A stretch of DNA of 11,954 bases from Phycisphaerae bacterium. Its GTDB lineage: Bacteria > Planctomycetota > Phycisphaerae > Sedimentisphaerales > SG8-4. Position numbers and translations under genes: made by a program. Positions 6,149-11,229 of this stretch are shown piece after piece. Location: assembly GCA_030614945.1 (NCBI GenBank), contig JAUXAH010000033.1, forward strand, positions 1 to 11,954, given 5' to 3'. Under the pieces are notes generated by a model, which saw only the letters and a program-made list of their open reading frames with translations, made no database searches and had not been told where the DNA came from. Position 1 is the stretch's first letter, and the number at the start of each line of letters is the position of its first letter.

Positions 6149-6850
6149 ATGGCTGTTATTGATTTGCAGACAAGACAATGTCCATTTTGTGCCGAGACGA
6201 TTCAGGTCCGGGCGATTAAGTGCCGATTCTGCGATGAATTCCTTAACAGCGGCAAGGCGAGAGCTTTGGAAGCCAGCTCAGGGTCGAATACGCAGTCGTC
6301 CGAGGCCGAAGGGGCGAACGATAACGTCCTGTTTGAGGGTAGGCCATCTCTGTGGGGGATGACTGGGGCGGTAATCAAGGGGCTATTCTTTGTTGTTGTG
6401 GCGGGTCTTCTGGTGAAGCTGCCTCTCGAAGATATGGCCAACGCCCTGCTGGGTTTGAACCTTACCGAAAGCCAGGCCCTGGCGTTCGGCCGATACAGGG
6501 TTATTGCCGGTGTGGCGCTTGCGGTACTGGTAATGCTTTTTCTTGTGATAAAGATGGTCAGGCTCAAGATGATCTACTATGAGGTTACAGCCGAGCGGAT
6601 CGAGTGGAGCAGAGGCATCTTCGACCGAAGGGTTGACAATCTGGATATGTTCCGGGTGATTGACCTGAAGATGCGCAGAACCGTGTTCGACTGTATTCTT
6701 GGGATAGGTACCGTGGGTTTGATAACAACTGACAAGACGGACCCGGAGTTCGTCTTCGAGAAGATACGGGATTCGCGCAGACTTTACGATATTATCAAGA
6801 AAGCCAGCCTTGAAGCAGATAAACGAAGCGGTGTCATACACGTGGAATAG
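6149..6850 (+). CDS. Zinc-ribbon and bacterial PH-domain membrane protein
   Basis: A 233-residue protein in three parts. The N-terminus is a zinc ribbon with two CxxC knuckles (Cys 11, 14, 25, 28; CPFCAETI and KCRFC), as in the zinc-ribbon leaders of many uncharacterised membrane proteins. A low-complexity Ser/Glu/Asn linker (about 42-58) follows, then two membrane segments (about 70-92 and 116-138), then a bPH_2 (YdbS-like) domain from about 142 to 215, with YEVTAERIEWSRG and IGTVGLITTDKTDPEF as signature stretches. The bPH_2 family is common next to membrane helices; its ligand and role are not established. The start is ATG 6149; a stop (TAG) lies two codons upstream in frame, so no longer start is possible, and there is no Shine-Dalgarno. 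It converges on ogt with a 23-bp gap. A specific physiological function cannot be read from the sequence. Confidence 0.85.
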   Translation: MAVIDLQTRQCPFCAETIQVRAIKCRFCDEFLNSGKARALEASSGSNTQSSEAEGANDNVLFEGRPSLWGMTGAVIKGLFFVVVAGLLVKLPLEDMANALLGLNLTESQALAFGRYRVIAGVALAVLVMLFLVIKMVRLKMIYYEVTAERIEWSRGIFDRRVDNLDMFRVIDLKMRRTVFDCILGIGTVGLITTDKTDPEFVFEKIRDSRRLYDIIKKASLEADKRSGVIHVE

Positions 6851-6873
6851 GGTTGGTTTGCAGGCACTTTGGG

Positions 6874-7632
6874 TCAGAGGCTTTTGCAAGGGATTATCGC
6901 TGCGTGTTCGTGTTTAAGTAACTTTGCCTTTAAGTCCTTTCCGCCTGGGGCGGAGAAGCCGCCGATTTTACCGTCGCTGCGGACTATGCGGTGGCAGGGG
7001 ATAATCAAGGGCAGTGGATTTTTAGCAAGTGCGGTGCCGACGGCTCTGGCCCCGTTAGAAATCTTCCCTTTTTGCGGTTTACGTCCCTTCGTAGAATTTC
7101 TAACGTGGCTGGCGGCGGCGGGTCGGCCTAACTTTTTCGCTAATCGCGAATAGCTTATTGTCCGGCCAAATCCGATATTTCTGCAGGCAGTTAAAACCTG
7201 TTTGGTAAATTCAGTAACTCTTTGTATAGGTAGAACGTGGGTGTATTTTGCGTTGGCTATCGTTTGTGGATTCCCGCTTGCGCGGGAATGACAAAAAGTG
7301 CGGGAATGACAGGTTGACCCCGACTCCTGCCGCAGGGGCGGGGTTGATGTGTAGTAATCCCATACAATGGGGACATCACTAAAATTTACGCGAGTCCCGC
7401 CCATCGGATGGGCTGGGCGAGTACCCTCAAAATAAGCGGTTATCTGTTCCTGGGCTGCCTTAAAGAAGGTTTTGTCGAATTGAGCGGCTTGCAGGTCTTT
7501 TAGAAGTTTCGGTTTGATTTTTTCAGGTTCCGGGCCGGGTAGGTGAGTTCGCAAGAGCCCATATTCGGTGCCGGCAAGGCCGAAATAGCCCCATTTGGTC
7601 TTGAAAATGGTATATTTTAGCGTTTTTTGCAT
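6874..7632 (-). CDS. ogt: O6-alkylguanine-DNA alkyltransferase (MGMT) with in-frame repeat insertions
   Basis: This suicide enzyme transfers alkyl groups from O6-alkylguanine in DNA to its own Cys. The active site is intact: PLIIPCHRIV with Cys 213, then GKIGGFSAPGG. The helix-turn-helix region (TISYSRLAKKLGRPAA, 158-173) and RAVGTALAKNPLP (196-208) are also typical. The protein is 252 residues, whereas the family is usually 160-180. The excess lies in visible inserts: a 9-residue period TR-PAHPMGG-TR (72-81), a 10-residue period ST-PPLRQESG-ST (96-107), the repeat-encoded CHSRTFCHSRASGNP (108-122), and 21 residues (about 174-195) splitting the usual GRPAAARAVG. All keep the frame and none introduces a stop. 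ATG at 7632 is the only sensible start; no Shine-Dalgarno is seen. Activity is uncertain because one insert falls in the DNA-binding half, but the conserved frame and active site argue against simple decay. Confidence 0.9.
   Translation of the reverse strand: MQKTLKYTIFKTKWGYFGLAGTEYGLLRTHLPGPEPEKIKPKLLKDLQAAQFDKTFFKAAQEQITAYFEGTRPAHPMGGTRVNFSDVPIVWDYYTSTPPLRQESGSTCHSRTFCHSRASGNPQTIANAKYTHVLPIQRVTEFTKQVLTACRNIGFGRTISYSRLAKKLGRPAAASHVRNSTKGRKPQKGKISNGARAVGTALAKNPLPLIIPCHRIVRSDGKIGGFSAPGGKDLKAKLLKHEHAAIIPCKSL
7046..7113. mobile_element. 63-bp palindromic insert inside ogt
   Basis: A perfect 10-bp inverted repeat, CGTTAGAAAT (7053-7062) and ATTTCTAACG (7096-7105), extends to 13 bp with one mismatch. 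Around it CTGGC occurs at 7046-7050 and again at 7109-7113, a period of exactly 63 bp, like a target duplication. Removing one period restores the family-typical GRPAAARAVG motif in the alkyltransferase. The insert adds 21 basic, glycine-rich residues. This resembles Rickettsia palindromic elements in size, symmetry and frame compatibility; homology to them is not claimed. Confidence 0.65.
7267..7311. repeat. Dispersed ATTCCCGC..GCGGGAAT repeat inside ogt (CHSR..GNP peptide)
   Basis: ATTCCCGC (7270-7277) and GCGGGAAT (7282-7289) form a perfect 8-bp hairpin with a 4-nt loop. GCGGGAATGACA occurs at 7282-7293 and again at 7300-7311, an 18-bp direct repeat that is frame-neutral. The minus strand reads CHSRTFCHSRASGNP. 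Repeats of this type, read in one or another frame as CHSR.GGNP, VIPA.AGI or similar, are known to be dispersed in many bacterial genomes and are often mis-annotated as protein. Here the repeat sits inside a real conserved gene. Confidence 0.8.
7312..7347. mobile_element. 30-bp GC-rich palindromic insert inside ogt
   Basis: GGTTGA occurs at 7312-7317 and 7342-7347, a period of 30 bp. Between them CCCCGACTCCTGC (7318-7330) and GCAGGGGCGGGG (7332-7343) form an imperfect hairpin around C7331. In protein it reads ST, then eight residues, then ST again. Length and symmetry match the neighbouring inserts; whether the 6-bp repeats are target duplications or slippage products cannot be decided here. 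Confidence 0.5.
7390..7422. mobile_element. 27-bp GC-rich palindromic insert inside ogt
   Basis: GCGAGT occurs at 7390-7395 and 7417-7422, a period of 27 bp. The core at 7399-7413 is GCCCATC, G, GATGGGC, a perfect 7-bp hairpin that extends to 10 bp with one mismatch. In protein it duplicates Thr-Arg and adds PAHPMGG after YFEG, where the family normally goes straight on to the strand here read as VNFSDVP. Confidence 0.55.
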
Positions 7633-7657
7633 TTTTTGCTTATGATTCGGTGTTCAC

Positions 7658-7690
7658 CCAGCCCCTCGCCCCGCCCCTCCGAGGGGCTGG
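7658..7690. repeat. GC-rich hairpin upstream of ogt
   Basis: CCAGCCCCTCG (7658-7668) and CGAGGGGCTGG (7680-7690) form a perfect 11-bp stem around an 11-nt loop containing CCCCGCCCC. No T-tract follows on either strand, so it is not a standard intrinsic terminator. The CCCGCCC word in the loop and the overall style link it to the palindromic inserts in the neighbouring ogt gene and to the hairpin before gmk. Confidence 0.6.
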
Positions 7691-7798
7691 TCAAGGATGG
7701 GCGGGGTTCAAAAATATTATCTAATGGGTCAAATTAGTTGACGCAAGGGCAAAATTTTGTTAGTAATAATAGTTTTTATGAAAAATGGCATTTAGGTT

Positions 7799-7915
7799 AT
7801 CAGGCTACCAGGTTATCAGGTAGTGGGCATCAGGCTATCAGGACATCAGGTAGGTTTTCCTGATACCCTGATTTGCTGATATCCTGCACTCTGATTTCCT
7901 GATGCGCTGATATCC
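7799..7915. repeat. Mirrored array of ATCAGG and CCTGAT words before pheA
   Basis: The left half carries ATCAGG five times (starting 7799, 7815, 7829, 7837, 7845), spaced 8-16 bp. The right half carries CCTGAT at 7859, 7867 and 7898 with further CTGATAT and CTGATTT variants. The halves are reverse complements in vocabulary, so many alternative hairpins are possible; the closest is 7845-7850 with 7859-7864 around an 8-nt loop. It ends about 20 bp before the pheA ATG and lies in its probable leader. No function is established. Confidence 0.65.
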
Positions 7916-7935
7916 ATGGTGGTAGTATTTGATTT

Positions 7936-9006
7936 ATGTCTCTTGAAGAATTGAGGAACCGAATTGACGAGCTTGACCATCAGCTTGTGAAGCTGCTCAA
8001 TGAGCGTGCGCGAGTTGTCGTGGAGATAGGGAAGCTGAAAGACAAAACCGGCGGACAGGTTTACGCACCGGACCGTGAAAAAGAGGTTTTTGCGAGGATT
8101 GCCGAGGCCAATAAGGGTCCGCTTCCGGACAAGTGCCTTGTGGCTATCTGGCGTGAGTTGATGAGCGGCTCTTTTGTTCTGGAAAGGCCATTGCGAATCG
8201 GTTATCTTGGTCCTGGCGGCAGCTTCAGCCACACCGCAGCTATGCTCAAGTTTGGCCAGAGTGTTGAATATGAGCCGCTGGCTGATATCAGGAGTATCTT
8301 TGATGAAGTAGGCAAGGGTCATTGCGATTTGGGGCTTGTGCCGATAGAGAACAGTACCGGCGGCGGCGTAATAGAGACGCTTGATGCGCTGATAGATTCG
8401 GACGTGAAGATATGCTCCGAGGTTCTGATGGCTATTCACCATAATCTTTTAGGCAATTGTCCACTGGAAGAAATCGAGAAGATTTACTCAAAGCCGGAGG
8501 TATTCGCCCAGTGCCGGAACTGGCTAAGCGCCACTTTTAAGGAGGCGCAAACTGTCCCCGTTGCCTCGACTGCGAAGGCGGCTCAAATGGCGGCTGACGA
8601 GCTGAACGCCGCAGCGATTGGTTCCAGCGTTGCTGCGGAGTTGTATGGTCTGAAAGTTGTCTGCGAAAATATTGAGGATATTGCTAATAATATAACGAGA
8701 TTTCTGGTGGTCAGCTGCGAGGATGCAAAGCCGACCGGTGAGGATAAGACCGCTGTATTGTTTAGCACCGCTCATAAGGCCGGTGCCCTGGCTGATGTGC
8801 TTGAAGTTTTCAAGCGATACAACATTAATCTGACCAATATAGAGTCCAGGCCGAGCAAGAAAAGGCAGTGGGAGTACTATTTCTTCGTGGATTTTGTAGG
8901 GCACAGGACGGAGAAACAAGTTCAAGAGGGACTGGAGAAGGCCCGTGAGTATTGTCTGCAGCTTTCGGTATTGGGCAGTTTCCCGAGAGCAACAGAATTG
9001 CTTTGA
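7936..9006 (+). CDS. pheA: Bifunctional chorismate mutase / prephenate dehydratase (P-protein)
   Basis: This enzyme carries out the two steps from chorismate to phenylpyruvate in phenylalanine synthesis. Residues 1-85 are an AroQ-type chorismate mutase (ELRNRIDELDHQLVKLLNER, then IGKLK and the helix ending WRELMSGS). Residues about 86-262 are prephenate dehydratase, with GPGGSFSHTAA (92-102), PIENSTGG (136-143) and NNITRF (251-256). A C-terminal ACT domain (about 273-350) has GALADVL (283-289) and ESRP (303-306), the phenylalanine-binding signatures, so feedback inhibition by phenylalanine is expected. The length of 356 residues is normal. ATG 7936 has no Shine-Dalgarno and no in-frame alternative that keeps the mutase start. 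tpiA begins 28 bp downstream, so co-transcription is likely. The leader contains the ATCAGG/CCTGAT array rather than a recognisable phenylalanine attenuator. Confidence 0.96.
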   Translation: MSLEELRNRIDELDHQLVKLLNERARVVVEIGKLKDKTGGQVYAPDREKEVFARIAEANKGPLPDKCLVAIWRELMSGSFVLERPLRIGYLGPGGSFSHTAAMLKFGQSVEYEPLADIRSIFDEVGKGHCDLGLVPIENSTGGGVIETLDALIDSDVKICSEVLMAIHHNLLGNCPLEEIEKIYSKPEVFAQCRNWLSATFKEAQTVPVASTAKAAQMAADELNAAAIGSSVAAELYGLKVVCENIEDIANNITRFLVVSCEDAKPTGEDKTAVLFSTAHKAGALADVLEVFKRYNINLTNIESRPSKKRQWEYYFFVDFVGHRTEKQVQEGLEKAREYCLQLSVLGSFPRATELL

Positions 9007-10273: not shown

Positions 10274-10344
10274 AGGGAAATTTTCACAAGCGCAGATAAA
10301 ATGGCTGCATGCGCAGGTGCATTTAGCTTGAAAGCGTGGTGGCT

Positions 10345-11229
10345 ATGATAAGTAGTATGACCGGATATGGAGACGCAGAGGGCCAGCTCAATGGTGTAAC
10401 GTACGCGGTGGAAATCAGGACGGTCAACAACCGTTATTTCAAGGCCAGTATAAGATTGCCGGACTCGATGGCGTTTCTGGAAGACGATATTGAAAAGCTT
10501 CTGCGAGGAAATTTGTCACGCGGGACGGTAAATTACGTGCTTCGGCTCAAAAATGTATCGGCGAATGTGCTCTTTGATATAGACGAGGCGGCCTTGCAGG
10601 CATATATGGAAAGATTAAGCCGTATTGCCTCTTCGGCCGATATGAAATGCCCGATTGATGTTGGCGGCTTGCTTAACTTGCCCGGAATTATTCGGCCGAC
10701 ATCGCCAGATGAAGAAGTGGCAGGGCAAGTTAAGGAGATGGTTTTAAGTATTACGCAAGATGCGATGGAGAAGCTCAAACAAATGCGTGCTGCCGAAGGA
10801 ACTGCTCTCAAAAATGATTTGAAGAAGCACTGCAGAGCGATAGAGCAGGACCTTGAGCGGGTACGTGCTCGCGGTACGGCTGTTGTGCAGGGATATGCAA
10901 AGAGACTAAAGAAGAGGGTCGATGAGCTGCTCGCTAGCGCAAAACTGAAATTGGATGATGAAACGCTTGCCAGAGAAGTGGCGATTTTTGCCGACAGGTC
11001 GGATATATCTGAGGAGATTGCTCGATTGGGTTCGCATTTGCAGCAGTTACTCCAGAGTTGTCGGGGGCGTGGTCAGGCAGGGCGGAGGTTAGACTTTATC
11101 AGCCAGGAGATGCTCAGAGAAGCTAATACCATTGCCAGCAAGGCGTCCGATATTGAGATTATCCGCTGTGTGGTCGATATAAAATGCCGGATAGACCGAA
11201 TTAAAGAACAGGTTCAGAATATAGAGTGA
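10345..11229 (+). CDS. yicC: YicC-family endoribonuclease
   Basis: A 294-residue YicC protein. The N-terminal domain opens with the family hallmark MISSMTGYG and continues VEIRTVNNRYFKASIRLP. The C-terminal DUF1732-type part ends in the diagnostic GRRLDFISQEMLREANTIAS, followed by RIKEQVQNIE. A coiled, charged middle section (about 130-210) is normal. E. coli YicC has been reported as an endoribonuclease acting on RyhB small RNA; the biological substrate here is unknown. I chose ATG 10345 since MISSMTGYG is the conserved start; two GTG codons at 10336 and 10339 just upstream are in frame but less likely. The yicC-gmk-rpoZ order that follows is widely conserved and suggests one transcript. Confidence 0.94.
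   Translation: MISSMTGYGDAEGQLNGVTYAVEIRTVNNRYFKASIRLPDSMAFLEDDIEKLLRGNLSRGTVNYVLRLKNVSANVLFDIDEAALQAYMERLSRIASSADMKCPIDVGGLLNLPGIIRPTSPDEEVAGQVKEMVLSITQDAMEKLKQMRAAEGTALKNDLKKHCRAIEQDLERVRARGTAVVQGYAKRLKKRVDELLASAKLKLDDETLAREVAIFADRSDISEEIARLGSHLQQLLQSCRGRGQAGRRLDFISQEMLREANTIASKASDIEIIRCVVDIKCRIDRIKEQVQNIE

Follow-up and report, generated by a model that had tools for sequence, protein, structure and literature searches.

Palindromic units in an enlarged ogt gene of a Phycisphaerae bacterium and their probable origin from two families of very small mobile elements

The ogt gene and its inserts

The window (the whole stretch of 11,954 nucleotides analyzed in this study, from a contig of a Phycisphaerae bacterium) contains a gene for methylated-DNA--protein-cysteine methyltransferase, ogt (Table 1). 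The product scored above the cut-offs of PF01035 (E 1.1e-26, 92.9 bits vs. 27) and TIGR00589 (85 vs. 46.4) in profile searches, and the PCHR active site was found intact in the alignment with homologues, which places it in the Ogt family. Homologues were also found in the PDB, and Foldseek matched the predicted fold to solved structures of O6-methylguanine methyltransferases (best E 1.5e-11). Ten-residue blocks of the model core mostly have pLDDT values of 74–94; residues 171–190, within the 63-bp insert, have values of 59–65, and residues 105–135 fall below 50. The AlphaFold model of the Ogt of a same-genus genome (G002) was poor (pLDDT 60.4). At 252 aa, the protein is about 75 residues longer than the commonest homologue length (177 aa; 41 of the best 120 among 4346 homologues), in agreement with the excess of 75–90 residues claimed in an earlier note made from the sequence of the window.

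Table 1. Position of ogt, its inserts and neighboring units in the window
Feature	Position	Strand	Remarks
ogt, methylated-DNA--protein-cysteine methyltransferase, 252 aa	6874..7632	(-)	PF01035, TIGR00589, PDB homologues, predicted fold
CTGGC, 5-bp target duplication, copy 1	7046..7050		
63-bp insert: CTGGC + 58-bp palindromic unit	unit 7051..7108	(-)	empty in G002 and G003
CTGGC, 5-bp target duplication, copy 2	7109..7113		
Older repeat-derived block: TTCCCGCTTGCGCGGGAATGACA + partial copy, read as CHSRTFCHSRASGNPQ	7263..7311	(-)	common to both sisters
GTTGA, 5-bp target duplication, copy 1	7313..7317		sixth base repeats too
30-bp insert: GTTGA + 25-bp GC-rich palindromic unit	unit 7318..7342	(-)	empty in G002 and G003
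GTTGA, 5-bp target duplication, copy 2	7343..7347		
CGAGT, 5-bp target duplication, copy 1	7391..7395		sixth base repeats too
27-bp insert: CGAGT + 22-bp GC-rich palindromic unit CCCGCCCATCGGATGGGCTGGG	unit 7396..7417	(-)	empty in G002 and G003
CGAGT, 5-bp target duplication, copy 2	7418..7422		
GTTCA repeat flanking the 49-bp unit	7652-7656 and 7706-7710		
Fourth unit, 49-bp GC-rich, just upstream of ogt	7657..7705		absent from G002 and G003

Blocks with periods of 27, 30, and 63 bp, each containing a palindrome and flanked by direct repeats of 5–6 bp, had been proposed to account for the excess. These were resolved into units of 22, 25, and 58 bp, each with a 5-bp duplication. A sixth base is repeated at the 30- and 27-bp inserts (GGTTGA, GCGAGT), which makes the register ambiguous by one base; the duplication at these two inserts is assigned as 5 bp by analogy with the element families described below. 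The 58-bp unit belongs to the CCCGTTAG...CTAACGGGG family, dispersed copies of which are present in G001, the nearest genome compared; it carries GTGG at one end and is translated as HVRNSTKGRKPQKGKISNG, which is placed in what we take to be the turn ahead of the DNA-recognition helix. The length of the upstream unit (49 = 22+5+22) is consistent with, but does not prove, the nesting of one unit in another.

A duplicated 18-bp copy of a dispersed repeat had been counted among the inserts. The duplication is real (GCGGGAATGACA occurs twice at 7282-7311), but it was found in both G002 and G003 and is therefore older than the three inserts. It is part of a linker block of about 35 aa that accounts for most of the excess left over after the three inserts and can be recognized in 11 of the 119 homologues aligned. 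This block (CHSRTFCHSRASGNPQ..., residues 86–141) comes at least partly from a dispersed TTCCCGC...GCGGGAATGACA repeat read in frame; dispersed copies of the stretch at 7263-7311 were also detected in G001.

With the inserts removed, pairwise dN/dS is 0.36 (window-G002), 0.28 (window-G003), and 0.28 (G002-G003); the ogt sequences thus give no clear sign of relaxation, although the inserts may be too recent for such a sign to show. The enlarged protein is probably still made and folded. A close homologue, P0083, goes out of frame upstream of the active site; therefore ogt can decay, and may be in the course of doing so in one relative or more.

Around the gene, an Rfam search over 6500-8000 gave a single hit, far under its gathering score. 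Tandem ATCAGG/CCTGAT repeats at 7794-7912 form a long hairpin between ogt and the next gene; this stretch does not align with G002 or G003, and a similar one occurs in G001. In the gene at 10336-11229, G002 has two extra pieces of 7 and 10 bp at 11046-11069, perhaps another short insertion.

Insertion states of ogt in relatives

G002 and G003 are the two same-genus genomes with a match to the window Ogt. G001, which has 30% of sampled 31-mers in common with the window, is 54% complete and gave no match to this protein. Alignment with these close relatives, as suggested in the earlier note, mapped the extra blocks: the sites of the 63-, 30-, and 27-bp inserts are exactly empty in both G002 and G003, each sister lacking the unit and the second copy of the 5-bp repeat, and the 49-bp upstream unit is likewise missing from both. 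The inserts add 120 bp (63+30+27), or 40 aa, and preserve both frame and active site as had been stated; Ogt is 212 aa long in G002. A metagenome homologue, P0002, has the 21-aa (63-bp) insert and neither of the other two. The gain of the inserts therefore took at least two steps. The allele with three inserts is known from one copy, that of the window.

The best 120 homologues were listed and 119 aligned, P0083 being left out. In 14 of these, some of them distant, 21–26 residues of the window's kind lie between A173 and R196, read in the same direction in every case; 104 homologues have a single residue at this position, and P0047 has another insert. With the length cut-offs used, the 27- and 30-bp inserts were found in none of the other 118 rows. 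On the Ogt tree, built with the insert columns removed, the trait requires nine changes, four of them forced by starred branches, and a single clade of insert-bearing proteins was rejected (p-AU 0.008; 143 columns, many weak forks). The trait is nevertheless more clustered than shuffled labels (9 vs. 13.5 changes; none of 500 shuffles as low), and five of the 14 homologues form one group. Repeated insertion at a favored target, repeated loss, and allele exchange are all possible causes of this recurrence. As the site is common to distant homologues, the 63-bp insert may be older or transferred, and this is the main result against equal recency of all three inserts. Of 89 genomes of the family searched for ogt DNA, 45 gave a match. 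In an earlier set of 30 family and order ogt genes, none contained an insert of the 63-bp type.

It is conceivable that the window acquired its 63-bp insert by recombination with an ogt allele already carrying it. P0009, 72% identical over aligned positions, has nearly the same 21-aa insert in the same place. However, the flanks of the window insert match G002 at 90.6% and 97.1%, and one end of the P0009 insert differs (H vs. P). We consider such an exchange unlikely.

Two families of dispersed palindromic units

The earlier note had raised the possibility that several of the blocks form one class of element. They are indeed dispersed palindromes, but fall into two families, one of GC-rich 22/25-mers and one of CCCGTTAG...CTAACGGGG units that mostly measure 58/61 bp; the two have CCC...GGG termini and a 5-bp duplication in common. 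Scanning 324 kb of G002 together with the window gave 36 exact 5-bp repeats around CCC..GGG vs. two around GGG..CCC. The 36 hits include register duplicates and chance hits, and ten other terminal pairs gave 12 to 54 hits (G002 alone, composition not corrected for); the raw count alone is weak evidence against chance. What stands out is that the CCC..GGG hits are palindromic and concentrated at two lengths, 22 bp (12) and 25 bp (3). The GC-rich class (stem fraction ≥0.7; 22-bp units counted with an exact 5-bp repeat) is represented in 1.03 Mb of G002 by 21 units of 22 bp, five of 25, one of 23, and one of 29. Units of the longer class, with CCCGTTAGAA/TTCTAACGGGG ends, are mostly 58 or 61 bp, the longest counted being 109 bp. 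Three 22-bp units of G002 (L068:4012, L068:15046, and L092:16394) occupy the same position in a dispersed repeat of greater length (GAAGCAAGTTCAC...GTAAGTCCTTCAATGACAA and similar forms); these units probably spread with the larger repeat and are not independent insertions.

The 22-bp class (≤2 mismatches) was detected in 11 of 119 relatives and is numerous only in G001, G002, G003, and G022. The longer class was found in 20 of the 119 and in three of 392 genomes across the phylum, G001 among them, an undercount since exact ends were required. A scan of named genomes for the exact 22-bp unit yielded 50 stretches, every one from a Phycisphaerae MAG with the label CSMAG, which also occurs in a cold-seep genome catalogue (PMC10491686).

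The flanks of 39 units in G002 were compared with loci in G001 and G003 in two ways, and the union of the results is given here; one of the 40 units first chosen (L063:5125) was left out as not a unit of its own. A single alignment across the junction, which under-detects sister copies with a long unit, gave 15 empty places among 18 comparable ones. Separate alignment of the flanks gave 13 empty, 7 filled, 1 other, and 18 with no comparable place; the empty places of L060:9662 and L071:7210 (in G003) were found by the junction-spanning alignment only. With sister loci taken from 30 of 52 matches, so that some sister places lie outside the sample, a comparable place was found for 22 of the 39 units and none for 17. 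Fourteen of the 22 were empty only, six filled only, one filled in G001 and empty in G003, and one differed by 6 bp; thus 15 of 22 have an empty place in a relative, as would be expected of MITE-like elements, and seven a filled one. Filled places hold a unit of like or other length, whereas at empty ones a single copy of the 5-bp repeat fits exactly. Four of the eight comparable units of the longer class were filled in a sister; this class is therefore older on the whole, and not all of its copies are recent. The corresponding figures for the GC-rich class are two of 14 filled only and one of 14 both filled and empty.

The duplication is of fixed length. An exact direct repeat of 5 bp, always in the same register, flanks 23 of 60 long units with perfect ends, and none of the 60 is flanked by one of 2, 3, 4, 6, 7, 8, or 9 bp, so that terminal inverted repeats and a fixed-length target duplication, both features of MITEs, occur together. 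The 72 target duplications collected have a symmetric bias, with A at position 1 in two and T at position 4 in one. Some of the copies counted in these comparisons are orthologous (e.g., L090:12634 and L194:2273) or lie in one larger repeat, and the counts are not all independent.

These comparisons bear on the view that the extra blocks in Ogt are old structural loops or other ancestral sequence, deleted in the sisters by slippage between the 5-bp repeats or by precise excision. Short direct repeats can promote deletion, and the occurrence of a similar insert, always in one reading direction, in 14 of 119 homologues, with a five-row clade keeping it, accords in part with shared old loops, the result that the earlier note had said would speak against insertion. 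Against this stand the rejection of a single clade, the clean empty sites, the restriction of the 27- and 30-bp inserts to the window among the 119 aligned rows by the length cut-offs used, and the dispersed copies at unrelated sites, one of them filled in G001 and empty in G003. Loss alone would, we infer, require many precise losses on the Ogt tree. Loss of old sequence in the sisters is accordingly quite improbable, and insertion of mobile units is preferred.

No mobilizing enzyme was found among the candidates profiled in relatives, the test being a phylogenetic profile against the elements in which G001-G003 and G022 are 54–86% complete. The tyrosine transposase Y1_Tnp (PF01797) was detected in 102 of 119 genomes including G001-G003, but not in G022 (74% complete), which has 22-bp copies (17 forward matches). 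The IS1380-type DDE transposase (PF13701) is present in 49 of 119 genomes but not in G002, G003, G006, or G022. Cas1 (PF01867) was found in 5 of 20 chosen genomes, not including G001-G003 or G022, and reverse transcriptase (PF00078) in 9 of 20, not including G001-G003, G022, G006, or G089. None of the four tracks the elements. In 1.03 Mb of G002, three weak candidates for longer elements with the same ends were found (10–11 of 14 matching), and no partner element combining CCCGTTAGAA-type ends with an exact 5-bp repeat was seen in about 2.0 Mb of partly overlapping DNA. Repeats are often collapsed in draft genomes. Movement of the units as REP/REPIN elements by a Y1 tyrosine transposase (RAYT) is the least probable of the alternatives: REPs have been described as small, high-copy palindromes with in-gene copies and examples in Planctomycetes (PMC3733652), and Y1_Tnp is present in G001-G003, but the units here have an exact 5-bp target duplication and lack the GTAG or CGTC end tag, and Y1_Tnp was not detected in the incomplete G022 despite its 22-bp copies.

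Reading frame, proposed mechanism and known systems

With the 5-bp duplication, the canonical lengths (22+5, 25+5, 58+5, and 61+5) are all multiples of three. Genic and non-genic sites were called with our own gene caller and are approximate. By these calls, the GC-rich class, window units included, is frame-neutral at all 16 coding sites and at 13 of the 15 non-coding ones. Most of its units (26 of 28) are free of stops in all six frames, which is largely explained by composition, since 78% of shuffled units are stop-free too. Long units are in frame at 32 of 37 former coding sites (29 of them open) vs. 16 of 26 non-coding sites, a modest difference (Fisher p 0.035), and the non-coding fraction itself exceeds one third (p 0.003). 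An ORF-based count of the longer class gave 30 of 32 vs. 13 of 26 but is partly circular. Stops interrupt three of the 32 in-frame long units within coding sequence, and the five units that shift the frame are located at 2–20% of the gene. The earlier note had attributed frame preservation either to selection or to elements built to be read through. Both appear to contribute: the in-frame excess holds between genes and is stronger inside genes, so the frame is kept by unit length and selection together.

The long units also have a preferred reading. Among 30 in-frame genic units, the PVR...SNG frame is used in 24 (p 0.002), a PL(E)...LTG-type frame in six, and the frame with TAG in none; the genic reading is mostly a hydrophilic peptide, PVRNST...QKGKISNG. 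In 16 of 20 PVR-frame units examined (of the 24), the equivalent opposite-strand frame is also open, and 14 of these 16 use the more hydrophilic of the two readings (p 0.004), with some orthologous pairs included in the counts. No clear phase preference was observed in the GC-rich class (phases 0, 1, and 2: 5, 7, and 4).

We conclude, with a probability of roughly 0.85, that the inserts are copies from two families of mobile palindromic elements, very small and non-autonomous, inserted in the following way. An enzyme would cut the target with a 5-base stagger, enzyme and cut both being deduced, at a loosely symmetric site (not-A, pyrimidine, any, purine, not-T). Insertion of a unit beginning with CCC and ending with GGG, followed by gap filling, would produce the 5-bp duplication, in keeping with the units, duplications, and empty sites observed. 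As unit length plus 5 bp is divisible by three, a gene that is hit would keep its frame; with GC-rich units mostly stop-free in six frames and two usable frames per strand in the longer family, the outcome would often be a longer open protein, not a null. Purifying selection would then remove frame-shifting copies and favor the hydrophilic reading. On this reading Ogt has kept three copies, located in the linker and loops and in the turn ahead of the recognition helix. It counts against this explanation that 22 bp is very short for a unit moved by a two-ended transposase.

In-frame palindromic elements are best known from Rickettsia, where their reading is hydrophilic. RPEs are palindromic mobile repeats of about 150 bp, located in frame in unrelated protein genes and encoding a conserved peptide (PMC10969869). 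The palindromic elements here are likewise mostly in frame within genes, in both families, and read as peptide; a conserved peptide was found in the long family, not in the GC-rich one. Unlike RPEs, the units are much shorter (canonically 22, 25, 58, or 61 bp, at most 109 bp), have a demonstrated 5-bp target duplication and empty sites, and occur in another phylum. The suggestion that this genome has its own counterpart of RPEs fairly describes how these dispersed palindromic families work, given that they duplicate their targets and have empty sites in sister species; we do not claim that they belong to the RPE family itself.

Cyanobacterial SDRs are reportedly 21–27 nt long, hairpin-forming, nested, and mobile, and an RNA route is said to have been suggested for them. 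The 22/25-bp units, with their empty sites, resemble SDRs, which were described by Elhai 2008 (cited in PMC3116915), in being small, dispersed, mobile hairpins. The long family lies outside the reported SDR size, and the elements are set apart in that they duplicate 5 bp of target, have a frame-neutral length, and are read as protein where they lie within genes. REPs are palindromes of 20–40 bp with in-gene copies, many in DNA repair genes, and are known in Planctomycetes (PMC3733652). Our units are similar in being small palindromes with in-gene copies in a planctomycete host; they differ in their CCC...GGG ends without a GTAG/CGTC tag, in the exact 5-bp duplication, and in the lack of a detected link to Y1_Tnp. 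MITEs, of 70–300 bp (PMC3733652), have terminal inverted repeats, a fixed target duplication, and no genes, as do the units here, which are smaller and for which no parent transposon was found in the DNA searched (1.03 Mb of G002; about 2.0 Mb, partly overlapping, for CCCGTTAGAA-type ends). A likeness to GC clusters was also noted. In yeast mitochondria, these short GC-rich palindromes can enlarge a protein gene in frame, with another target duplication and in an organelle.

The elements are RPE-like in genes and SDR-like in size, and match no known kind in every defining feature; they read as a variant of the RPE/REP/SDR kind. No description of such elements was found in the part of the literature naming Planctomycetes or Phycisphaerae that was covered. 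We tentatively entertain, while regarding it as less probable than not, a new Phycisphaerae transposition system with 22-bp-minimum units, a 5-bp duplication, and translation-compatible lengths and sequences, repeatedly kept, perhaps usefully, ahead of the Ogt recognition helix. If this were true, the 85% of the genome that is coding (by our gene calls on the G002 sample) would be opened as living space for elements. The in-frame strategy of the Rickettsia elements is seen here in another phylum, with units roughly one-seventh to two-fifths as long as RPEs. These may be the smallest elements with clean target duplications. Since frame and strand preference can be counted, adaptation of elements to coding DNA becomes testable by numbers, and the several insertion states of ogt in close relatives include a natural series of Ogt proteins that either have or lack 21 extra residues in the DNA-binding motif.

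A further repeat family may be read as protein in Ogt. The loop at residues 44–57 is expanded in many homologues (e.g., P0016, P0023, P0043, P0060, and P0092) by motifs like NRxSSIEYRVSRIEFD, which may be translations of a repeat of the ATCGAGAATCGA type; such 12-mers occur frequently in G002.
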